The translations under genes and the position numbers were made by a program. DNA of 64,000 nucleotides, taken from contig NZ_CP009754.1 in the NCBI RefSeq assembly GCF_000772045.1, positions 2,170,001-2,234,000 of the forward strand, in the 5' to 3' direction. Source of the stretch: Streptomyces sp. CCM_MD2014. Lineage in GTDB: Bacteria; Actinomycetota; Actinomycetes; Streptomycetales; Streptomycetaceae. Positions 33,340 through 45,002 of this stretch are shown here, piece after piece. The notes under the pieces were generated by a model, which ran no database searches, was not told where the DNA came from, and worked only from the letters and a program-made list of their open reading frames with translations. Every line of letters begins with the position of its first letter. Positions within the stretch are counted from its first letter, which is position 1.

Positions 33340-33738
33340 CTACGGCAGTACGGCGAACCCGTCGAGTTCGACCAACGCCCTTTCGTCCCAGAGCCGTACG
33401 ACCTCCACAACCGCCATCGCCGGGTAGTCGCGGCCCGCCAGCTCGCGCCAGGTGCGGCCGAGGTCGGCGGCGTGGGTGCGGTAGGCGGCGACGTCGGTGG
33501 CGTAGACGGTGACGCGGGCGAGGTCGGCGGGGGTGCCGCCGGCGGCGCGCAGGGCGGTGAGGAGGTTGGCGAGGGCCCGTTCGAACTGGGCGGGGAGGGT
33601 GTCGCCGGTGATCTTGCCGTCGGTGTCGAGGGCGGTCTGGCCGGCCAGGAAGACGACGCGGGTGCCGGTGGCGACGACGGCGTGGGAGAAGCCGGTGGGC
33701 GGGGAGAGTTCGGGCGGGTTCACCCGTTCGGCGGTCAT
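33340..33738 (-). CDS. RidA (YjgF/YER057c/UK114) family protein
   Basis: 132 residues, full length for the trimeric Rid fold. It has the opening PPTGFSHAVVATGTRVVFLAGQTALDTDG, the middle QFERALANLLTALRAAGGTPADLARVTVYATD, and YPAMAVVEVVRL near the end. RidA itself hydrolyses enamines/imines and needs an Arg in the ARS motif; here that place reads PAM-A, so the canonical deaminase residue is missing and this belongs to another Rid subgroup. ATG overlaps the stop of the acyl-CoA dehydrogenase gene (ATGA). Confidence 0.9.
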   Translation of the reverse strand: MTAERVNPPELSPPTGFSHAVVATGTRVVFLAGQTALDTDGKITGDTLPAQFERALANLLTALRAAGGTPADLARVTVYATDVAAYRTHAADLGRTWRELAGRDYPAMAVVEVVRLWDERALVELDGFAVLP

Positions 33739-34913
33739 GCTCCGGCCTCCTCGGTGGTGGTGTCATGGGTCCGCTGCGTCTGGTACGTCCGGTACAGCTC
33801 CTTGGCGACGATGCCGCGCTGCACCTCGCTCGCGCCCTCGTAGACGCGGGGTGCGCGCACCTCCCGGTAGAGGTGTTCGAGGAGGTGGCCGCGGCGCAGG
33901 GCGCGGGCGCCGTGCAGCTGGACGGCCTTGTCGACGACGTACTGGGCGGTCTCGGTGGCGAGGAGCTTCGCCATCGCCGCGCGCCGGGGGACGTCCGGAG
34001 CGCCCGCGTCGTACGCCGTCGCCGCCGCGTACACCATCAGGCGGGCCGCCTCGGTGCGCAGGGCCATCTCGGCGACCTGGTGGGAGACGGTCTGGAGGTC
34101 GCACAGCTTGCCGCCGAAGGCGTCGCGGGCGGCGGTGTGCGCGAGGGTCGCGTCCAGGGCGGCCTGCGCCATGCCGACGGCGAAGGCGCCGACGCTGGGG
34201 CGGAACAGGTTGAGGGTGCCCATGGCGACCCGGAAGCCGCGGTCCGGTTCGCCCAGGACGTCGTCCGCGGTGACGGGCACGGCGTCGAAGGAGAGGGCGC
34301 CGATGGGATGCGGCGAGAGCATGTCGAGCGGGGTGCCGGTGAGGCCGGGGCGGTCGGCGGGCACGAGGAAGGCGGTGACGCCGCGGGCGCCGGCGCCGGG
34401 AGTGGTGCGGGCGAACACGGTGTAGAAGTCGGCCTCGGGGGCGTTGGAGATCCAGCACTTCTCGCCCGTGAGCCGCCAGGCGGGGCTTCCCGCGCCGCTC
34501 CCGGCGTCCGATTCCGCCCTCAGCGACAGCGCGGCCGCGTCCGAGCCCGCGTCGGGCTCACTGAGGGCGAAGGCGGCCACCGCGCTGCCGTCGCTCACGC
34601 CGGGGAGCCAGCGGGCGCGCTGGGCCGCGGTGCCGTGGGCGTGCACCGGGTGGGCGCCCAGACCCTGGAGGGCGAGGGCGGTCTCGGCCTCGGTGCAGGC
34701 GCGGGCGAGGGACTCGCGCATCAGGCACAGGTCGAGCGCGCCGGAGGTGAACAGGCGGGGCAGCAGGCCGAGGGCGCCGAGCTCGGCTACCAGGGCGCGG
34801 TTGACGCGGCCCGGCTCGCCCTTCTCCGCGAGCGGGCGCAGCCGTTCGGCGGCGAGGGTGCGCAGCTCGTCGCACCAGGTGAGTTGTGCCGGTTCGAGCG
34901 AGAATGCGGTCAT
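33735..34913 (-). CDS. Acyl-CoA dehydrogenase
   Basis: 392 residues, the usual length for the FAD-dependent family that makes 2,3-enoyl-CoA. Seen: FAD/substrate motif FALSEPDAGSDAAAL, W-x-SNAPEADFYTVFARTTP, the C-terminal segment with Gln/Gly-rich VQLHGARALRRGHLLEHLYREVRAPRVYEGASEVQR (YEG Glu as likely catalytic base). It is the first gene of the leftward operon dehydrogenase, Rid protein, hydrolase. Upstream is one of two matching promoter/operator modules shared with the crotonase-monooxygenase operon. A role in the cyclic intermediates of the aryl-CoA pathway is inferred. Confidence 0.94.
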   Translation of the reverse strand: MTAFSLEPAQLTWCDELRTLAAERLRPLAEKGEPGRVNRALVAELGALGLLPRLFTSGALDLCLMRESLARACTEAETALALQGLGAHPVHAHGTAAQRARWLPGVSDGSAVAAFALSEPDAGSDAAALSLRAESDAGSGAGSPAWRLTGEKCWISNAPEADFYTVFARTTPGAGARGVTAFLVPADRPGLTGTPLDMLSPHPIGALSFDAVPVTADDVLGEPDRGFRVAMGTLNLFRPSVGAFAVGMAQAALDATLAHTAARDAFGGKLCDLQTVSHQVAEMALRTEAARLMVYAAATAYDAGAPDVPRRAAMAKLLATETAQYVVDKAVQLHGARALRRGHLLEHLYREVRAPRVYEGASEVQRGIVAKELYRTYQTQRTHDTTTEEAGA

Positions 34914-34994
34914 CGGCCGTCCCTTCCCCTGCTCCCCTGCCCTGCCTGCGCCCGGCTTCCGGCCCGCCGGACGGGCCGTCGGTCCACGACCGAG

Positions 34995-35022
34995 GTTATC
35001 GCGCCCCGTTGACTGTCGTCAC
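34995..35022. promoter_or_regulatory. Shared promoter/operator module A (aryl-CoA regulon)
   Basis: GTTATC, 9 bases, then TGACTGTCGTCAC. The second part contains the inverted repeat TGAC-TGTC-GTCA. Leftward it reads as GTGACG -16- GATAAC, a promoter for the acyl-CoA dehydrogenase operon. Rightward TTGACT (35009-35014) -16- TACGCT (35031-35036) serves the ligase operon. The same 28-bp layout occurs at 41844-41871. PaaX-family control is inferred. Confidence 0.7.
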
Positions 35023-35075
35023 CAACACGATACGCTCGTTGCGCGAGCCCACCACGACAAAGGGGGCGAACCGCC

Positions 35076-36752
35076 ATGGCCGATCCGCGCCACGCGGACC
35101 CGCACCGCTCCGCCCACGTCGACACCTTCGCGCGGGACCACCTGCCGCCCCCCGAGCAGTGGCCGGAGCTTGTCTTCGAGCTGCCCGAGCTGCGCTACCC
35201 GGCCCGGCTGAACTGCGCCGCCGAGCTGCTCACCGGCCCGCCCGACGACCGCCCGGTCTTCCGCACCGCGTCCGGGGACACCTGGACCTACGGCGGGCTG
35301 CGGGAGCGCGTCGACCGGATCGCGCACGTGCTGACCGGCGACCTCGGTGTCGTCCCGGGCAACCGGGTGCTGCTGCGCGGCCCCACCACCCCGTGGCTGG
35401 CCGCCTGCTGGCTGGCGGTGCTGAAGGCGGGCGCGGTGGCGGTCACCGTGCTGGCCCAGCAGCGCCCGCACGAGCTGCGCGCCGTCTGCGAGATCGCCCG
35501 GGTGCGGCACGCGCTGTGCGACGTCCGGGCGGTCGACGACCTCGCCAAGGCGGAGATCGCCGGCCTGCGCATCACGACCTTCGGCGGGGACGCTCCGGAC
35601 GACCTGCGGACCCGTACGGCGTCCGGCGCGGTGCCCGGCACGCCGTACGAGGCCGTCGACACCGCCGCCGACGACGTGGCGCTCATCGCGTTCACCTCCG
35701 GCACCACGGGGCGGCCCAAGGGCTGCATGCACTTCCACCGCGACGTGCTGGCGATCGCGGACACCTTCTCCGCGCATGTGCTGAAGCCGCGACCGGACGA
35801 CGTCTTCGCGGGCAGCCCGCCGCTCGGCTTCACCTTCGGGCTCGGCGGTCTCGTGGTCTTCCCGCTGCGGGCCGGGGCGAGTGCACTGCTGCTCGAACAG
35901 GCGGGGCCCAAGCAGCTGTTGCCGGCGGTCGCCGAGCACCGGGTGTCGGTGCTGTTCACCGCGCCGACGGCGTACCGGGCGCTGCTGGACGAGCTGGACG
36001 CGTACGACGTGAGCAGTCTCAGGCGCTGCGTCTCGGCGGGCGAGAACCTGCCCGCGGCCACCTGGCGGGCCTGGCACGAGCGCACCGGCCTGCGCATCAT
36101 CAACGGCATCGGCGCCACCGAACTGCTGCACATCTTCGTGTCCGCGGCGGACGACGCCATCAGGCCCGGCACGACGGGCGTTCCGGTGCCGGGGTGGCAC
36201 GCGCGCGTGCAGGACGAGCGGGGCGGGCCGGTGCCCGACGGGGAGCCGGGGCTGCTGGCGGTGCGCGGGCCGGTCGGGTGCCGCTACCTCGCCGATCCGC
36301 GGCAGCGCGAGTACGTGCGCGACGGCTGGAACGTCACCGGGGACACTTACGTCCGCGAACCCGACGGGTACTTCCGGTACGTGGCCCGCGCCGACGACAT
36401 GATCATCTCCGCCGGGTACAACATCGCGGGGCCGGAGGTGGAGGACGCGCTGCTGCGCCATCCGGACGTGGTGGAGGCGGCCGTGGTGGGCCGGCCCGAC
36501 CAGCGCCGGGGACAGGTCGTCGTGGCGCACGCGGTGCTGCGGGAGGGGGCCGCGCGGGACGCGGACGCGCTGCGCGCGTTCCTGCGGTCGGAGCTGGCGC
36601 CGTACAAGTGCCCGCGGGAGATCGTCTTCCTGGACGCGCTGCCGCGCACGGCGACCGGGAAGCTCCAGCGCTACCGCCTCCTGGACGCACCCGACCCCAA
36701 TCCGGCCGCCGTTCCCGGTGCTCGTCCGGATCCCCTGGGCGGCCGGGCCTGA
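35076..36752 (+). CDS. AMP-dependent aryl-CoA ligase (benzoate / 2-aminobenzoate-CoA ligase type)
   Basis: 558 residues of the ANL superfamily: P-loop FTSGTTGRPKGCMHF at about 207, the acyl-binding GSPPLGFTFGLGG, NGIGATELLHIF, RADDMIISAGYNIAGPEVED, and the A10 lysine in RTATGKLQRYRL near 530. The combination (PPLGFTFGLG, GATELLHIFVSA) is characteristic of benzoate- and 2-aminobenzoate-CoA ligases. With the neighbouring anthraniloyl-CoA-type monooxygenase, 2-aminobenzoate (anthranilate) is the likeliest substrate, with benzoate or salicylate as alternatives. ATG at 35076 follows GGGGGCGA. The PaaX-like gene follows 15 bases later. Confidence 0.9.
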   Translation: MADPRHADPHRSAHVDTFARDHLPPPEQWPELVFELPELRYPARLNCAAELLTGPPDDRPVFRTASGDTWTYGGLRERVDRIAHVLTGDLGVVPGNRVLLRGPTTPWLAACWLAVLKAGAVAVTVLAQQRPHELRAVCEIARVRHALCDVRAVDDLAKAEIAGLRITTFGGDAPDDLRTRTASGAVPGTPYEAVDTAADDVALIAFTSGTTGRPKGCMHFHRDVLAIADTFSAHVLKPRPDDVFAGSPPLGFTFGLGGLVVFPLRAGASALLLEQAGPKQLLPAVAEHRVSVLFTAPTAYRALLDELDAYDVSSLRRCVSAGENLPAATWRAWHERTGLRIINGIGATELLHIFVSAADDAIRPGTTGVPVPGWHARVQDERGGPVPDGEPGLLAVRGPVGCRYLADPRQREYVRDGWNVTGDTYVREPDGYFRYVARADDMIISAGYNIAGPEVEDALLRHPDVVEAAVVGRPDQRRGQVVVAHAVLREGAARDADALRAFLRSELAPYKCPREIVFLDALPRTATGKLQRYRLLDAPDPNPAAVPGARPDPLGGRA

Positions 36753-36767
36753 GGCCGACGACATAAG

Positions 36768-37625
36768 ATGATCAACGTGTCCGACCAGCACGTGCAGTAC
36801 GCCCCGAGGTCCCTCATCGTCACGCTCTACGGCGCCTACGGCCGTTTCGCGCCGGGCCCGGTGCCCGTCGCCGAGCTGATCCGGCTGCTGGCGGCGGTCG
36901 GGGTGGACGCGCCCTCCGTACGCTCGTCCGTGTCCCGGCTGAAGCGGCGCGGTCTGCTGCTGCCCGCCCGTACGGCCGAGGGCGCGGCCGGTTACGAACT
37001 CTCCGCCGAGGCGCGCGAGTTGCTGGACGACGGCGACCGGCGCGTCTACGCCACCGCGCCCCGTGAGGACGAGGGCTGGGTGCTCGCCGTGTTCTCCGTG
37101 CCCGAGTCGGAGCGGCAGAAGCGGCACGTCCTGCGCTCGCGCCTGGCCGGTCTCGGCTTCGGCACCGCCGCACCCGGCGTGTGGATCGCCCCGGCCCGGC
37201 TGTACGAGGAGACCCGGCACGCCCTGGGACGCCTGGGTCTGGACTCCTACGTGGACTTCTTCCGCGGTGAGCACCTGGGCTTCGCGCCGACCGCCGAGGC
37301 GGTGGCCCGCTGGTGGGACCTGGCCGCCATCGCCAAGGAGCACGAGGCGTTCCTCGACCGGCACGCGCGCGTCCTGCACGCGTGGGAGCGCCGCGCGGAC
37401 ACCCCGCCCGAGGAGGCCTACCGCGACTACCTCCTCGCCCTGGACTCGTGGCGGCACCTGCCCTACGCGGACCCGGGGCTGCCCGCCCGGCTGCTGCCCG
37501 AAAACTGGCCGGGCACGCGCTCGGCGGCCGTGTTCCGGGCGCTGCACGAACGGCTGCACGACGCGGGTGCCCGTTATGCGGACATGGGGCCCGTCACGGG
37601 ACCAACTCCACCTTCCGGGCAGTGA
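36768..37625 (+). CDS. PaaX family transcriptional regulator
   Basis: 285 residues: N-terminal winged helix (SLIVTLYGAYGRFAPGPVPVAELIRLLAAVGVDAPSVRSSVSRLKRRGLL), central PaaX domain (WVLAVFSVPESERQKRHVLRSRLAGLGFGTAAPGVWIAP), and C-terminal FLDRHARV...YLLALDSWRHLPYADPGLPARLLPENWPG. PaaX represses phenylacetate genes and responds to an acyl-CoA, so an aryl-CoA is the expected ligand here. It sits directly behind the ligase gene; the regulated sites are probably the two matching 28-bp modules. Start could be ATG 36768 or GTG 36777. Confidence 0.93.
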   Translation: MINVSDQHVQYAPRSLIVTLYGAYGRFAPGPVPVAELIRLLAAVGVDAPSVRSSVSRLKRRGLLLPARTAEGAAGYELSAEARELLDDGDRRVYATAPREDEGWVLAVFSVPESERQKRHVLRSRLAGLGFGTAAPGVWIAPARLYEETRHALGRLGLDSYVDFFRGEHLGFAPTAEAVARWWDLAAIAKEHEAFLDRHARVLHAWERRADTPPEEAYRDYLLALDSWRHLPYADPGLPARLLPENWPGTRSAAVFRALHERLHDAGARYADMGPVTGPTPPSGQ

Positions 37626-37636
37626 TTCACATCACA
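37621..37636. promoter_or_regulatory. CRP-like palindrome upstream of sulfotransferase gene
   Basis: AGTGATTCACATCACA fits TGTGA-N6-TCACA at 9 of 10 half-site bases and nearly fits the GTG-N6-GNCAC pattern described for Streptomyces Crp. It overlaps the end of the PaaX-like gene, 73 bases before the next start. One occurrence of a short motif, so weak evidence. Confidence 0.35.
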
Positions 37637-37708
37637 TTTTAGCGGGATGAGCGAACCCTCAGCCCTCTCAGATCCTCTTCTCAGGTTTCTCACCTACCGT
37701 GCGGACGC

Positions 37709-38608
37709 ATGAGTCTCGCGCGCAACTTGAACCGGGCCCTCACCGTCACCACCGGCCTCCAGGTACGGAGAGCACCCCAGGCGGCGAAGGGGAAGCAGGG
37801 GAAGAAGTCCGCCGCGGCCAAGCCCGCGGCACGGCAGCAGGCCGACTACCGATGTCCGCCGGCCGGGGAACTGCCGACCGAGCGCCTGCTGCGCCGGCCC
37901 GTCTTCATCATCTCGTCCATCCGTTCCGGCTCCACCCTGCTGCGCATGATGATGGGCGCCCATCCTCGGCTGCACGCCCCGCACGAGCTGCACATCGGGC
38001 GGCTGGAGGTCGCCTGCACCAACTGGCACTCCGAGCGTGCGATGGGCGAACTCGGCCTGCGGCGCGGCGACCTGGAGCACCTGTTGTGGGACCGCGTCCT
38101 GCACCGCGAACTCACCAGGTCCGGCAAGGACCACGTGGTCGAGAAGACCCCGGCCAACGCGTACATGTACCGGCGTCTCAAGGACTGCTGGCCCGACGCG
38201 CGCTTCGTCTTCCTGCTGCGCCACCCCGCGTCGATCGCCCGTTCCTGGCACGAGAGCGACCCCGTGAAACGGCCGCACGAGACGGCCGTCACGGATGTGC
38301 TGCGCTACATGACGGCCGTGGAGGAGGCCCGCACGGCCGACGCCGACGGCTTCACCGTGCGCTACGAGGACATCACCGACGACCCGGAGCGCGAGATGCG
38401 CCGCCTGTGCGCGTACCTCGACGTCGACTACGCGCCGGCCATGCTGAACTACGGCAGGAAGAGCAGCGCCGAACTGGTCAGGGGCCTGGGCGACTGGCGC
38501 GAGAACATCCGCACCGGCACCGTGCAGCCCGGCCGCGCGCTGCCGCGGGAGGACGAGATCCCTCAGCGGCTGCGTCCGATGTGCGCGGCCTGGGGCTACA
38601 CGTCCTGA
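37709..38608 (+). CDS. PAPS-dependent sulfotransferase family protein
   Basis: 299 residues. After a basic Lys/Ala-rich N-terminal extension (about 1-45), the sulfotransferase_3-type domain begins with the 5'-phosphosulfate loop PVFIISSIRSGSTLLRMMM and has the 3'-phosphate segment FVFLLRHPASIARSWHES, then YEDITDDPEREMRRLCAYLDV. Such enzymes move sulfate from PAPS to an alcohol or amine; the acceptor is unknown. It lies between the two halves of the aryl-CoA cluster but carries no obvious link to it. Its end overlaps the end of the convergent monooxygenase gene by 13 bases. Confidence 0.9.
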   Translation: MSLARNLNRALTVTTGLQVRRAPQAAKGKQGKKSAAAKPAARQQADYRCPPAGELPTERLLRRPVFIISSIRSGSTLLRMMMGAHPRLHAPHELHIGRLEVACTNWHSERAMGELGLRRGDLEHLLWDRVLHRELTRSGKDHVVEKTPANAYMYRRLKDCWPDARFVFLLRHPASIARSWHESDPVKRPHETAVTDVLRYMTAVEEARTADADGFTVRYEDITDDPEREMRRLCAYLDVDYAPAMLNYGRKSSAELVRGLGDWRENIRTGTVQPGRALPREDEIPQRLRPMCAAWGYTS

Positions 38609-41001
38609 CGCGGGCCGTGCAGCGTCAGCCGCGGTTTGGGGGCGTCGGTGCGTCCGGTGCGCGGCGGTCGGCTGCCCGCCCGGTACGGCGCCGGCCAGAC
38701 GGCGCCCGGCCCGTCGTAGCCCTGCTCGGCGGCGGCGTGCAGCGTCCAGTGCGGGTCGTAGAGGTGGGGGCGGGCCAGCGCGCACAGGTCGGTGCGTCCG
38801 GCCAGGATCAGCGAGTTGACGTCGTCCCAGGAGGAGATCGCGCCGACGGCGATCACCGGCACCCCCGCCTCGTGCCGGATGCGGTCGGCGTACGGCGTCT
38901 GGTACGACCGCCCGAACTCGGGGCGTTCACCGGACACCACCTGGCCGGTGGACACGTCGACGGCGTCGGCGCCGTGCGCGGCGAAGGCCCGGGCGATCTC
39001 CACCGCCTCCTCGCCGCTCGTGCCGCCCTCGGCCCAGTCGGTGGCGGAGATCCGTACGGTCATGGGCCGTTCGCCGGGCCACACCTCGCGTACGGCGTCG
39101 AAGACCTCCAGCGGGAAACGCAGCCGCTTCTCCAGTGAGCCGCCGTAGGCGTCGGTGCGGTGGTTGGTGAGCGGGGAGAGGAAGCCGGAGAGCAGATAGC
39201 CGTGGGCGCAGTGCAGTTCGAGCAGGTCGAAGCGGGCGTCGGCGGCCCGTTCGGCGGCGGCCCTGAACTGCTGACGTACGTCGGTGAGCTGGGCCCGGGA
39301 CAGTTCGCGCGGGATCTGGCTGCCCGGCCGGTACGGCAGCGGGGAGGGGGCCACGAGGGGCCAGTTGCCGTCGGGCAGCGGTTCGTCCATGCCCTCCCAC
39401 ATCAGGCGGGTCGAGCCCTTGCGGCCGCTGTGGCCGAGCTGCACGCCGATCGCGGTGCCGGGCGCGCTGTCGTGCACGAAGTCGGTGATCCGCCGCCACG
39501 CCTCGCCCTGGCGGCCGGTGTAGAGGCCCGCGCAGCCGGGGGTGATGCGGCCCTCGGGGCTGACGCACACCATCTCGGTCATCACCAGGGCGGCCCCGCC
39601 CAGGGCCCTGGCCCCGAGGTGGACCAGGTGGAAGTCGCCGGGGACGCCGTCGGTGGCCGAGTACATGTCCATCGCGGAGACGACGACGCGGTTGCGCAGG
39701 GTCAGGCCGCGCAGCCGGAACGGGGTGAACATCGGCGGTGTGCCGGGCGGGCAGCCGAACTCGCGCTCGACGGAGTCGGTGAAGCCGGCGTCGCGCAGCC
39801 GCAGGTTCTCGTGGGTGACCCGGCGGCTGCGGGTGAGCAGGTTGAAGGCGAACTGGCGCGGTGGCTGGCCGAGGTACCGGGCCAGGTCCTCGAACCACTC
39901 CAGGCTGGCCTTGGCGGCCCGCTGCGTGGACGCGACGACGGGGCGCCGCTCCTCCTCGTAGGCGGCGAGTGCCTGCGGGAGGGCGGGCTGTTCCTCCAGA
40001 CAGGCGGCGAGCGCGAGGGCGTCCTCCACGGCGAGTTTGGTGCCGGAGCCGATGGAGAAGTGGGCGGTGTGGGCGGCGTCGCCGAGCAGGACGACGTTGC
40101 CGTGCGACCAGCGTTCGTTGACGACCGTGCGGAAGGTGGTCCACGCGGACTTGTTGGACCGCAGGGGGCGGCCGCCGAGGGCGCCGGCGAAGATCTTGGC
40201 GCAGCGGGCGGTGGACTCCGCCTCGTCGAGCTCGTCGAAGCCGGCCGCCCGCCAGACCTCCTCGCGCATCTCGACGATGACGGTGGAGGCGTCGGGTGCG
40301 TAGGGGTAGCCGTGCAGTTGCATCACGCCGTGCTCGGTCTCGGCGATCTCGAAGCGGAAGGCGTCGAAGGCGAAGTCGGCGGCGAGCCAGATGTAGCGGC
40401 AGCGGTGGGGCGTGAGCCGCGGCCGGAAGACGTCGCGGTACGCCTCGCGGGTGGCGCTGTGCACGCCGTCGGCGGCGACGACGAGGTCGTGGGTCCGTGC
40501 GAGGCGGTCCGGGGGCGGTGCCTCGGTGCGAAAGCGCAGGTCCACGCCGAGGTCGCGGCAGCGGTCGTGCAGGATCTCCAGGAGGCGGCGGCGGCCGAGG
40601 GCGGCGAAGCGGTGTCCTCCGGAGGTGTGGCGGGTGCCTCGGTGGACGATGTCGATGTCGTCCCAGCGGACGAAGTGGGCCTTGAGTGCCTCGTAGACGA
40701 CGGGGTCGGCGTGCTCGATGCCGCCCAGGGTCTCGTCGGAGAGGACCACGCCGAAGCCGAAGGTGTCGTCGGGGGCGTTGCGCTCGTAGACGGTGATCTC
40801 GCGGTCGGGGGCCAGGCGTTTGAGGAGGGCGGCGGTGTAGAGGCCGCCGGGGCCGCCACCGACAATGGCGATGCGGTGAGGGTGGTTGCGGTTGTCCCGC
40901 GGGTGCGGGTTCGTTGTGGCTGGTCGCGCCCCGCGGCGGAGCCGCTGATCGACACAGCCCCGCGCCCCTGAGGTTGGCGTGCTCCCCCGCGTTGACAACA
41001 T
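38596..41001 (-). CDS. Bifunctional FAD monooxygenase / OYE-family reductase (2-aminobenzoyl-CoA or salicylyl-CoA type)
   Basis: 801 residues. Part 1 (about 43-415) is a class A flavin monooxygenase: RIAIVGGGPGGLYTAALLKR, the DG motif VVAADGVHSATRE, and GDAAHTAHFSIGSGTKLAVEDA. Part 2 (about 425-775) is an old-yellow-enzyme barrel: FTPFRLRGLTLRNRVVVSAM, HLGARALGG, GVQLGHSGRKGS, FDLLELHCAHGYLLSGFLSP. This fusion is that of Azoarcus 2-aminobenzoyl-CoA monooxygenase/reductase, which hydroxylates and then reduces the ring of the CoA thioester; databases also call it salicylyl-CoA 5-hydroxylase. ATG 41001 has AGGGAGG at 7 bases. The first about 40 codons derive from a dispersed intergenic repeat, an odd N-terminal extension. 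Confidence 0.92.
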   Translation of the reverse strand: MLSTRGSTPTSGARGCVDQRLRRGARPATTNPHPRDNRNHPHRIAIVGGGPGGLYTAALLKRLAPDREITVYERNAPDDTFGFGVVLSDETLGGIEHADPVVYEALKAHFVRWDDIDIVHRGTRHTSGGHRFAALGRRRLLEILHDRCRDLGVDLRFRTEAPPPDRLARTHDLVVAADGVHSATREAYRDVFRPRLTPHRCRYIWLAADFAFDAFRFEIAETEHGVMQLHGYPYAPDASTVIVEMREEVWRAAGFDELDEAESTARCAKIFAGALGGRPLRSNKSAWTTFRTVVNERWSHGNVVLLGDAAHTAHFSIGSGTKLAVEDALALAACLEEQPALPQALAAYEEERRPVVASTQRAAKASLEWFEDLARYLGQPPRQFAFNLLTRSRRVTHENLRLRDAGFTDSVEREFGCPPGTPPMFTPFRLRGLTLRNRVVVSAMDMYSATDGVPGDFHLVHLGARALGGAALVMTEMVCVSPEGRITPGCAGLYTGRQGEAWRRITDFVHDSAPGTAIGVQLGHSGRKGSTRLMWEGMDEPLPDGNWPLVAPSPLPYRPGSQIPRELSRAQLTDVRQQFRAAAERAADARFDLLELHCAHGYLLSGFLSPLTNHRTDAYGGSLEKRLRFPLEVFDAVREVWPGERPMTVRISATDWAEGGTSGEEAVEIARAFAAHGADAVDVSTGQVVSGERPEFGRSYQTPYADRIRHEAGVPVIAVGAISSWDDVNSLILAGRTDLCALARPHLYDPHWTLHAAAEQGYDGPGAVWPAPYRAGSRPPRTGRTDAPKPRLTLHGPRQDV
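40898..40974. repeat. Dispersed Streptomyces intergenic repeat inside the 5' end of the monooxygenase gene
   Basis: The text GGTGCGGGTTCGTTGTGGCTGG followed by TCGCGC, a GC-rich hairpin (CGCGGCGGAGCCGC) and ACAGCCCCGCGCCCCTGA is the wording of a repeat often seen between Streptomyces genes (GCGGGT-GGCTGGTCGCGC...CCCGCGCCCCT). Here it lies downstream of the ribosome site and start codon, so it is translated in frame. Recognition is from memory; no second copy is in the window. Confidence 0.55.
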
Positions 41002-41005
41002 CTCC

Positions 41006-41833
41006 CTACCTCCCTTGCCACTTCGGGGGGCGTTTTTCCGTGAAGGACGCGTGGAATTCGGCGTAGTCGTCGCCCGTCATCAGGAGGGCCTGCGTGGACG
41101 CGTCCAGTTCGATCGCTGCCGCGAGCGGCATGTCGAGCTCCGCCGTCAGGAGGGCCTTGGTCTGGGCGTACGCCAGCGCCGGTCCGTCGGCCAGGCGGCG
41201 GGCCAGGGTGTGGGCGGCCTCGTCGGCGCGACCCTCCTCGGTCAGTTCGCTGATCAGGCCGATGCGCTCGGCCTCGGGCGCGCGGACCGTGTCGCCGAGC
41301 ATCAGCAGGCGGGTGGCGTGACCGAGGCCCACGACGCGGGGCAGCAGGTACGCGGCGCCCATGTCGCCGCCGGACAGGCCGACGCGGGTGAAGAGGAAGG
41401 CGAAGCGGGCGGAGGGGTCGGCGACGCGGAAGTCGGCGGCCAGGGCGAGGACGGCGCCCGCACCGGCGGCGACGCCGTGCAGGGCGGCGATCACCGGGAA
41501 CGGGCACTCCCGCACCGCCCGCACCACCTGGCCCGTCATCCGGTTGAAGTCGAGCAGCGTCGCGGTGTCCATGGACAGGGTGGCGCCGATGATCTCGTCC
41601 ACGTCGCCGCCGGAGCAGAAGCCGCGCCCCTCGCCGGCCAGCACCAGGGCGCGCACGGACCGCCGGCGGGACAGCTCGGCGAGCAGGTCGCGCAGGTCGG
41701 CGTAGGCCTCGAAGGTGAGCGCGTTGAGCTTGTCGGGGCGGGCGAGGGTGACGGTGGCGACGCCGTCGGTGATCTCGACACGCAGGTGCCGCCAGTCGGG
41801 GGTGGGGGCGGCCGAGCCGGTGAAGGGACTCAT
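41006..41833 (-). CDS. Enoyl-CoA hydratase/isomerase (crotonase) family protein
   Basis: 275 residues, single crotonase domain: VTLARPDKLNALTFEAYADL, oxyanion strand GEGRGFCSGGDVDEII, ALHGVAAGAGAVLALAADFRVADPSARFAF, RVGLSGGDMGAAYLLPRVVG. The two glutamates of true enoyl-CoA hydratases are not at their usual places (Val and Thr there). An Asp in SGGDMG stands where ring-opening relatives such as BadI or MenB place theirs, so hydrolytic ring cleavage of a cyclic oxo-acyl-CoA is a fair guess. ATG 41833 lies 10 bases from a GATAAC -10 (41849-41844), giving an almost leaderless mRNA. It ends 4 bases before the monooxygenase start. Confidence 0.92.
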   Translation of the reverse strand: MSPFTGSAAPTPDWRHLRVEITDGVATVTLARPDKLNALTFEAYADLRDLLAELSRRRSVRALVLAGEGRGFCSGGDVDEIIGATLSMDTATLLDFNRMTGQVVRAVRECPFPVIAALHGVAAGAGAVLALAADFRVADPSARFAFLFTRVGLSGGDMGAAYLLPRVVGLGHATRLLMLGDTVRAPEAERIGLISELTEEGRADEAAHTLARRLADGPALAYAQTKALLTAELDMPLAAAIELDASTQALLMTGDDYAEFHASFTEKRPPKWQGR

Positions 41834-41843
41834 GACACTCGAA

Positions 41844-41871
41844 GTTATCACCCATCCGTGACTGTCGTCAC
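41844..41871. promoter_or_regulatory. Shared promoter/operator module B (aryl-CoA regulon)
   Basis: GTTATC, 9 bases, TGACTGTCGTCAC: identical in fixed bases and spacing to module A at 34995-35022. Leftward it gives GTGACG -16- GATAAC in front of the crotonase-monooxygenase operon, with the GTGAC-TGTC-GTCAC inverted repeat over the -35. Confidence 0.72.
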
Positions 41872-42026
41872 GAGTGCGCGATAAAGCACGGAGGGTGCCG
41901 GAGGCACCGTGTCGAGGGGCGAAGGTCCCGAGGGGTGCCCGTCGAACGGCTCTGCCGGGTGGCGCCGTACCATTCATAAGGTCGAAAGCAGGACAGGACG
42001 CCCCTGCTCCACGAAACGGACCTGCC

Positions 42027-42467
42027 GTGCACGATCACTCCCCCGCACCCGCCTCCTGGCGCATCGCGCTGCCGCACTCCGCCGCGGCCGTGCCGGTGGC
42101 GCGTGCGCTGGTGCGCAACGCCCTGGCCGAGCTGGAGCACACGGCCGACGGGGACACCGCGGAGCTGCTCACGGCGGAGCTGGTCGCCAACGCCGTGGAG
42201 CACACCTCGGTGGGCCGGACACCGATCGAGCTGGTGGTGGAGCTGAGGCCGACCGGCTGCCAGGTCGAGGTGCACGACCCGGACCCGTCACCGCCCGCCG
42301 ACCTCACCCGGCCGGACGTGGAGCCGCCCGACCCGTGGCGCGAGGGCGGGCGCGGTCTGCTGCTGATCCGCGCCCTCAGCTCGTCCTGCGGCCACCGGCC
42401 CACCGGGGCGGGCAAGGCGGTCTGGTTCAGGCTTCCTGCGGTACCCGCTCAGCGTCGTCCGCACTGA
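42027..42467 (+). CDS. ATP-binding protein, anti-sigma factor (RsbW-like) family
   Basis: 146 residues of the HATPase_c_2 type: ALPHSAAAVPVARALVRNAL, N-box ELVANAVEHT, G1-like EVHDPDPSPP, and the lid GGRGLLLIRALSSSCG with GAGKAVWF at the end. These stand-alone kinases or anti-sigma regulators are very numerous in Streptomyces; the partner cannot be inferred. GTG at 42027 follows ACGGA. The last 41 bases overlap the end of the convergent permease gene. Confidence 0.88.
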   Translation: MHDHSPAPASWRIALPHSAAAVPVARALVRNALAELEHTADGDTAELLTAELVANAVEHTSVGRTPIELVVELRPTGCQVEVHDPDPSPPADLTRPDVEPPDPWREGGRGLLLIRALSSSCGHRPTGAGKAVWFRLPAVPAQRRPH

Positions 42468-43994: not shown

Positions 43995-45002
43995 TCAGGC
44001 GAGGGTGGCCACGAGGACGGCCTTGATGGTGTGCAGACGGTTCTCCGCCTCGTCGAAGACGACGGAGTGCTCCGACTCGAAGACCTCGTCCGTGACCTCC
44101 AGGGAGTCGAGCCCGTGGGCCTCGAAGATCTCCTGGCCGACCTTGGTGCCCAGGTCGTGGAAGGCGGGCAGGCAGTGCAGGAACTTGACGTCCGGGTTGC
44201 CGGTGGCGCGCAGGACGTCCATGGTCACGGCGTAGGGCGCGAGGGCCTTGATGCGCTCGGCCCAGACCTCCTTGGGCTCGCCCATCGAGACCCAGACGTC
44301 GGTCACGACGAAATCGGCGCCGCGCACCCCCTCGGCCACGGTCTCGGTGAGGGTGATGCGCGCCCCGCTGGTCCGGGCGAGCGCGTTCGCCCGGTCGACG
44401 ACCTCCTGGGCGGGCCAGTAGGCCTTCGGGGCGACGATGCGCACGTCCATGCCGAGCAGGGCGCCGGTGACCAGGTAGGAGTTGCCCATGTTGAAGCGGG
44501 CGTCGCCGAGGTAGGCGAAGGTGATCTCCCGCAGGGGGCGGTCGCTGTGCTCGGTCATGGTGAGGACGTCGGCGAGCATCTGGGTGGGGTGCCAGTCGTC
44601 GGTCAGGCCGTTGTAGACGGGGACGCCCGCGAAGGCCGCCAGCTCCTCGACCTTGGCCTGGCTGTCGCCGCGGTACTCGATGCCGTCGAACATCCGCCCC
44701 AGCACGCGCGCGGTGTCCTTCACGGACTCCTTGTGGCCGATCTGCGAGCCGGCCGGGTCCAGGTACGTGGTCGAGGCGCCCTGGTCGGCGGCGGCGACCT
44801 CGAACGCGCAGCGGGTGCGGGTCGAGGTCTTCTCGAAGATCAGCGCGATGTTCTTGCCGGTGAGGTACCGCGTCTCGGTCCCGGCCCGCTTGGCGGCCTT
44901 CAGCTCCGCGGCCAGCTCGACCAGGCCGCGGAACTCCTCCTCGGTGACATCGAGCTCCTTGAGGAAGTGGCGGCCGGCGAGGGCGGTCGGGACTGTCGCC
45001 AT
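43995..45002 (-). CDS. argF: Ornithine carbamoyltransferase
   Basis: 335 residues. Carbamoyl-phosphate motif STRTRC (60-65), [12 protein letters not shown], and the ornithine/SMG region with DVWVSMGE and [10 protein letters not shown] (active Cys). In the arginine deiminase route it works in the catabolic direction, splitting citrulline to ornithine and carbamoyl phosphate; in biosynthesis the reverse. Adjacency to arcA favours the catabolic type (ArcB), but the sequence alone does not decide. Tandem ARG-box-like repeats lie 32-71 bases upstream of ATG 45002. Confidence 0.96.

Follow-up and report, generated by a model that had tools for sequence, protein, structure and literature searches.

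Paired candidate operators of a PaaX-type repressor at a probable anthranilate-degradation cluster of Streptomyces

The closest precedent for the element described here is MeqR2 of Arthrobacter sp. Rue61a, a PaaX-type repressor encoded on plasmid pAL1. According to Niewerth et al. 2013 (J Bacteriol), MeqR2 reportedly binds the palindrome 5'-TGACGNNCGTCA-3' at its own promoter and at catabolic promoters; its sites are said to lie on the -35 elements of the catabolic promoters, and anthraniloyl-coenzyme A (anthraniloyl-CoA) is said to release it. For Escherichia coli PaaX, the accessible part of a 2022 review (PMC9493321) reports repression of its own and of catabolic promoters, a response to an aryl-CoA, and the operator TGATTC-N27-GAATCA, the structure of a PaaX-operator complex being yet unsolved. 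The present analysis concerns a 64,000-nucleotide stretch of Streptomyces sp. CCM_MD2014 (NZ_CP009754.1, positions 2,170,001 to 2,234,000; hereafter the window), in which a cluster that most likely serves CoA-dependent breakdown of anthranilate (2-aminobenzoate) carries the same operator-like module at two promoter regions, with a paaX-like gene between them. We consider it likely that this paaX-like gene encodes a repressor of the PaaX type and that both modules are its operators, placed over the promoters of this cluster.

Two copies of a conserved, directional module

The pattern GTTATC-N9-TGACTGTCGTCAC is present at 34995-35022 (site 1) and 41844-41871 (site 2), and the reading of window and genome bears out both the positions and the identical spacing given in a preliminary description of this DNA. 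With up to three mismatches the 28-base-pair (bp) pattern is matched twice in the window, whereas shuffles predict 0.01 matches, a figure for a pattern picked after both copies were known. In the whole genome (8,274,043 bases, one contig) there are two exact copies and none of the reversed control; the scan for further copies proposed in the preliminary description thus yielded no third exact copy across the 8.27-megabase genome. When one mismatch was allowed among the 12 fixed bases of the 25-bp pattern TATC-N9-TGAC-N4-GTCA, seven further places were found, and none for the reversed control. All seven are readable within open frames. Three of them (L058, L061 and L062) coincide with the same segment of a single protein family, whose short frames (YQxMxTSVD) are nearly identical and make up a small gene family repeated in this genome. 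The seven are provisionally taken as coding sequence rather than as further regulon members. The 12-bp core with one mismatch has 29 other places in the genome against 11 for its reversed control, an excess that makes weaker targets elsewhere possible. A spread of the module over the promoters of many unrelated genes, which would speak against a dedicated regulon, was not seen in the window's own genome.

The module is real and conserved across the genus. TATC-N9-TGAC-N4-GTCA was found in 134 of 150 genus genomes, the reversed control giving one match in each of three. Often there are three matches per genome, namely site 1 plus site 2 on both strands, and nearly all of the matches listed are of the site 1 or the site 2 type, a few lying elsewhere. 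Single matches far from the cluster do occur among those listed, for example in G013, G060, G073, G095, G097 and G114; at the distant match of G013 (L097), the sole one fetched, no cluster gene was found. Of the 150 genomes, 123 have an enoyl-CoA hydratase ortholog (E up to 1e-120), and the pattern is found in all 123 of these versus 11 of the 27 without one (Fisher p 9.5e-15, kinship ignored); a PaaX match (E up to 1e-20) is present in 143. Looking up to 3 kilobases (kb) upstream of paaX in the best 80 of 422 relatives (named genomes), we found TATCGCG-N6-TGAC-N4-GTCA in 75. Two of the five loci without the site (L194 and L219) extend less than 1.2 kb past paaX on its upstream side, and their site may lie beyond.

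To describe the anatomy of the sites, 45 sequences were scanned (the window, 40 genus loci, L083, L096, L098 and L099), and 41 site 1 and 35 site 2 sequences with an exact TGAC-N4-GTCA no more than 400 bp from a ligase or hydratase match of at least 55% identity were aligned. Altered cores were left out. Selection was on the exact core only, so that the core is conditioned on and the arms are not; L083, within the site 1 set, is a paralogous cluster. At site 1 the rightward elements are nearly invariant, with TTGAC in 41/41, TANNNT at 16-bp spacing in 40/41 and TACGCT in 38/41, in line with the rightward TTGACT earlier assigned to the ligase-paaX unit. A leftward TANNNT is kept there in just 23/41, and the acyl-CoA dehydrogenase gene has a possible promoter, predicted to be weaker than the other two. 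Site 2 has TATCA in 35/35 and a leftward TANNNT at 18-bp spacing in 35/35; on its other side CGCGATA is kept in 29/35 and a rightward TANNNT in 1/35. On this last count a rightward promoter at site 2 toward the neighboring HATPase gene was rejected. The earlier proposal that the inverted repeat TGAC-TGTC-GTCA covers the -35 is supported. The proposal that GATAAC is the leftward -10 at both sites needed revision: TANNNT is matched by TAACTT at site 2 and, at site 1, by TAACCT, and a conserved leftward -10 stood at site 2 and fell at site 1, where TATCGCG is invariant. In the window, TAACTT ends 8 bp ahead of the hydratase ATG (41831-41847), so that the messenger RNA would here have little or no leader. 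Measured from the far core edge, the hydratase start is 36-37 bp away in 4 of the 35 aligned sequences; for the remaining 31 the distance is 56-146 bp.

The outer element occurs once per site. TATNNCG stands to the left of the core in 41/41 site 1 sequences, with CGNNATA to the right in 1/41; at site 2 the corresponding counts are 0/35 and 33/35. TATCGCG and its reverse complement are read as an operator arm upstream of the -35, because they are conserved where no -10 is possible (site 2) or where the -10 is poorly kept (site 1), and TATCGCG at site 1 is better read as mainly an operator arm than as a -10. The module therefore exceeds the 28 bp first proposed: both copies are real, and the true unit is longer and directional. 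Its site 2 form, TATC-N9-TGAC-N4-GTCA-N9-GATA, spans 38 bp and is intact in 29 of the 35 sequences aligned; at site 1 it extends on to GATACGCT. A general symmetric four-part operator of 38 bp was considered and rejected, as the arm is found once per site and the outer element on the opposite side is part of the -10. Left of site 1 and right of site 2, information content is close to background; moderate conservation persists in the leader that follows site 1 and in the DNA left of site 2.

The register of the arm holds outside the genus, and this is the strongest new result. At an E threshold of 1e-40, 53 of 296 genomes from the class yielded a PaaX match; 26 of the 53 belong to the window's genus, and the other-family sample comprised 20 loci (L104-L123). 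In these loci we counted 26 exact cores; 10 of them are no more than 250 bp upstream of a cluster gene, where 1.0 would be expected (binomial p 2e-8). Where the linked PaaX is at least 50% identical, a core lies no more than 250 bp upstream of a cluster gene in 9 of 12 loci (11 of 12 if farther cores are counted); where it is less than 50% identical, this is so in 1 of 8. When the 26 cores were joined by the five on pAL1, TATNNCG or its reverse complement stood exactly 6 bp from the core in 14 of 31. Slid from -8 to +8, the arm gave one match in total over the 31 cores in 16 shifted registers, and at random places of the same loci its rate was 0.0005. The other 17 cores have no arm, and the 14 are not independent events, related loci sharing descent. 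An earlier register test used 25 picked sites (20 of the 26 cores plus the five of pAL1); repeated with all 31, it gave the same 14 and 1.

The linked PaaX-type protein and competing explanations

The gene between the sites encodes a protein with PaaX N-terminal, Cas2-like middle and PaaX_C domains, all three Pfam models scoring above cut-off. Its closest named match is from S. coelicoflavus (94%; very near records may be left out). The preliminary description took this protein as the natural repressor, its gene as autoregulated, and the two sites as one regulon of three transcription units. As a candidate repressor it gains support from the cores that other families carry at their homologous clusters, and from those at the Arthrobacter quinaldine/anthranilate genes. 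Autoregulation is favored by gene order: in G032 (L146) and G109 (L148) site 1 lies directly before paaX with no ligase gene between, as expected if paaX itself is a target. The regulon is supported in the form of a cluster-restricted pair of sites serving three gene blocks.

In the mechanism we propose, each operator would consist of a TATNNCG arm, exactly 6 bp, and then TGAC-N4-GTCA on the -35 of the controlled promoter. Site 1 would control the rightward ligase-paaX unit and, less strongly, the leftward acyl-CoA dehydrogenase gene; the leftward enoyl-CoA hydratase-monooxygenase unit would be under the control of site 2. Without substrate, the repressor bound over the -35 would block RNA polymerase, at its own operon included. 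A small leak of ligase would convert the substrate to its CoA thioester, most likely 2-aminobenzoyl-CoA, which would bind the repressor and free all the promoters.

Several observations weigh against this mechanism. The main evidence against an exclusive pairing of this protein with these sites comes from G023 (L142), G072 (L096) and G075 (L141), which keep the enzymes and both sites with no paaX between. G023 and G075 have a 46-53% identical PaaX elsewhere in the genome, and the best PaaX match in the genome of G072 is at 1.7e-66; the 980-bp gap of the G072 locus (L096, 8726-9705) has no PaaX match, and its translation resembles an acetyltransferase by eye. Conversely, G014, G062, G068, G092, G125 and G130 keep paaX without a hydratase ortholog or the full pattern. 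In the other-family sample, L110, whose linked PaaX is 54% identical, has no core near its cluster genes. Within the genus, the paralogous ligase-monooxygenase-paaX clusters L083, L086, L087, L091 and L095 have TATCGCG or a variant plus TTGAC before the ligase gene, and in four of the five (PaaX 44-47%) the right half of the dyad is decayed, which suggests a diverged operator for a paralogous regulator; in the other PaaX-paralog clusters of the genus no clear motif was found upstream of ligase, paaX or monooxygenase. The helix region VRSSVSRLK-RG, common to the pAL1 and window proteins, is nearly the same in many PaaX relatives without the core, and so the helix permits, and does not prove, the same target. 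Finally, a palindrome in the -35 could serve another DNA-binding protein. As a separate observation, L075, L080, L101, L102, L143 and L144 have paaX without the enzyme genes and, in all six, the HATPase gene within about 6 kb; L101 has two cores without exact arms between paaX and the HATPase gene.

The sites might be merely a strong housekeeping promoter pair whose dyad is incidental to the -35, with no repressor involved, and the nearly invariant promoter elements counted above, rightward at site 1 and leftward at site 2, are in keeping with that. A promoter alone, however, has no need of the exact TATC-N9-TGAC-N4-GTCA that occurs at least once in all 123 hydratase-bearing genomes, nor does it account for CGCGATA kept at site 2 without a usable -10, or for an arm locked at 6 bp across families. 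Some paralog clusters, moreover, keep the arm or a variant before TTGAC where the sequence to the left resembles, by eye, the 3' end of a rightward gene. We regard a bare promoter pair as very improbable. An unlinked regulator, such as a PaaX paralog or OsdR, could instead be the main user of the sites. The three genomes that keep the sites without a linked paaX fit this explanation, as does the binding of phosphorylated OsdR to the SCO5978-SCO5979 intergenic region in vitro, reported from gel shifts in the accessible text of PMC5069765. On the other side, no palindrome resembling the OsdR/DevR consensus AGGGCCGATCGGCCCT is in either module, and the probable OsdR box stands separately at 41915-41930; the module also tracks PaaX-linked clusters of the same pathway in other families and on pAL1. 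An unlinked main user appears improbable, if less so than the bare promoter pair.

It is somewhat more conceivable, though still unlikely, that the PaaX-like protein does bind and that the substrate is another aromatic acid, for example salicylate, with salicylyl-CoA as effector. The fusion enzyme of the cluster reaches 1246.6 bits (cut-off 1078) with NF006101, the model that NCBIfam names salicylyl-CoA 5-hydroxylase/oxidoreductase. Against this, the same enzyme family together with a CoA ligase makes up the proposed anthranilate route of Arthrobacter Rue61a, and two ligase genes of that strain gave anthranilate-CoA ligase activity, as described in the available part of PMC3534580. Repression by the linked PaaX-type protein with an anthranilate-derived effector is the reading carried forward here.

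A further proposal, which we put forward tentatively and hold somewhat below even chances, is that the operator of this PaaX branch is a directional composite: a single TATNNCG arm, fixed 6 bp upstream of the core and beyond the -35, kept at many sites over several actinobacterial families. If so, binding would involve more than one repressor dimer or an additional contact, arm orientation would mark the main target of a divergent promoter pair, and aromatic degradation would also be coupled to the OsdR hypoxia response through the enoyl-CoA hydratase promoter. The register-locked arm poses a concrete question on DNA recognition by PaaX-type proteins. A defined operator paired with its cognate repressor would also give an inducible promoter or an aryl-CoA sensor in Streptomyces.

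The gene cluster and its surroundings

The coordinates of the cluster and of its sites are collected in Table 1. Linked predicted genes for anthranilate-CoA catabolism, homologs of a ligase and of a fusion monooxygenase, are present. The window ligase and monooxygenase are 54% and 63% identical, respectively, to the pAL1 proteins, and for this reason the cluster most likely degrades anthranilate. Anthranilate occurs as an intermediate in tryptophan metabolism and is also used to build natural products, and with a hydratase ortholog in 123 of 150 genus genomes the cluster offers a fate for it. The sulfotransferase-like gene is probably not core to the regulon.

Table 1. Genes, predicted promoters and operator elements around the two sites (window positions)
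Feature	Position	Strand	Basis or detail
Acyl-CoA dehydrogenase	33735..34913	-	Pfam PF00441/PF02770/PF02771
Possible leftward acyl-CoA dehydrogenase promoter	34993..35022	-	GTGACG 35022-35017, 18-bp spacer, TAACCT 34998-34993
Site 1 upstream arm TATCGCG (TATNNCG), 6 bp from core	34997..35003	+	All seven bases in 41/41; register-locked outside genus
Predicted rightward ligase-paaX promoter	35009..35036	+	TTGACT 35009-35014, 16-bp spacer, TACGCT 35031-35036
Site 1 core dyad TGAC-TGTC-GTCA	35010..35021	.	Window sequence; also seen in relatives, there selected by exact core
Adenosine monophosphate (AMP)-binding aryl-CoA ligase, probable 2-aminobenzoate-CoA ligase	35076..36752	+	Pfam; 54% identical to pAL1 ligase beside monooxygenase
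PaaX-type transcriptional regulator, candidate repressor	36768..37625	+	PF07848, PF20803, PF08223, all above cut-off
Sulfotransferase-like gene	37709..38608	+	PF13469; in minority of loci read
Flavin monooxygenase/old yellow enzyme (OYE) fusion, 2-aminobenzoyl-CoA or salicylyl-CoA type, start uncertain	38596..~40875	-	NF006101
Enoyl-CoA hydratase	41006..41833	-	NF006107, 400.5 bits vs cut-off 330
Predicted leftward enoyl-CoA hydratase-monooxygenase promoter	41842..41871	-	GTGACG 41871-41866, 18-bp spacer, TAACTT 41847-41842
Putative site 2 operator, 38 bp	41846..41883	-	Core 41859-41870, upstream arm CGCGATA 41877-41883; complete in 29/35
Probable OsdR (hypoxia/dormancy regulator) box AGGGGCGAAGGTCCCG	41915..41930	.	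44 bp beyond site 2 core
HATPase_c_2 gene	42027..42467	+	Beyond site 2
Ornithine carbamoyltransferase	43995..45002		Named from own sequence

The cluster probably corresponds to the SCO5976-SCO5982 region of S. coelicolor, an orthology inferred from names, order and the neighboring ornithine carbamoyltransferase gene (SCO5976); we take SCO5983 and SCO5984 to be numbers of counterpart genes there. The part of PMC5069765 available to us describes SCO5979 as an enoyl-CoA hydratase cotranscribed with SCO5980, a 'bifunctional hydroxylase, oxidoreductase', and predicts an OsdR box, CGGGACCTTCGGCCCT, 80 bp upstream of SCO5979. The window's probable box has one mismatch to the reverse complement of that reported one. 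A match with up to four mismatches was found in 20 of the 35 loci, several hardly above shuffles, and none in the other 15, and the box is claimed, as probable, for the window and near relatives only. Oxygen limitation may therefore be a second signal at the site 2 promoter. The S. coelicolor account differs from ours in that the OsdR box is described there and a PaaX operator is unmentioned in the part available. SCO5982, a 'Regulator', is listed as up-regulated by glucose in the accessible part of PMC4848846. By gene order, SCO5981 is the likely counterpart of the sulfotransferase-like gene; it has a sigma-E binding site and is repressed by sigma-E, according to the portion of PMC10771440 available.

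Comparison with known PaaX-type systems

The window protein belongs to the same three-domain family as E. coli PaaX, and the two match at 2.8e-14 (8a39). The equivalog model for the phenylacetate regulator, TIGR02277, gave 137 bits with the window protein against a cut-off of 264.55, which places it in the same family and not as the phenylacetate regulator. The E. coli operator was located in NC_000913 between paaZ and paaA, with one mismatch; neither TGATTC nor GAATCA occurs in site 1 or site 2 of the window. The presumed recognition helix reads VRSSVSRLKKRG in the pAL1 proteins and VRSSVSRLKRRG in the window protein, whereas the alignment gives VRTALFRLNKEG for the corresponding helix of E. 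coli PaaX. A shared outer spacing with the E. coli operator (39 versus 38 bp) was dropped as too weak.

The likeness to pAL1 is closer. Both systems have a PaaX-type protein beside a CoA ligase and a fusion monooxygenase, and the core dyad TGAC-N4-GTCA is found at the target promoters of the window. The reported MeqR2 palindrome, TGACGNNCGTCA, is missed by one base, the window form TGACTGTCGTCA being one base off on either strand. Five cores lie on pAL1 (L103), three exact and two one base off, and four of them are upstream of anthranilate/quinaldine genes or of the adjoining PaaX-like gene: core 7223 precedes a PaaX-like gene beside the monooxygenase gene, core 14933, one base off, stands before the lower-pathway operon, and cores 27408 and 27814 are in the divergent meq region. 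This placement agrees with the binding sites reported for MeqR2. The fifth core, L103:17786 (TGACGATCGTAA), has a CGATATA arm and lies about 350 bp before a superoxide dismutase gene. Both pAL1 PaaX-related proteins take part in the control of quinaldine degradation, according to the accessible part of PMC3534580. The differences are that the window protein is 40-43% identical to its pAL1 relatives, that no quinaldine genes were seen beside the window cluster, and that exact TATC/GATA arms are missing from all five pAL1 cores, two of which carry an arm of the looser form TATNNCG. Among the records listed in the literature searched, from which subscription journals were mostly missing, none was a study of a PaaX operator in Streptomyces. 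In sum, as far as these searches show, the operator is new as described for this cluster and is of a known kind, with MeqR2 of Arthrobacter as its closest precedent.

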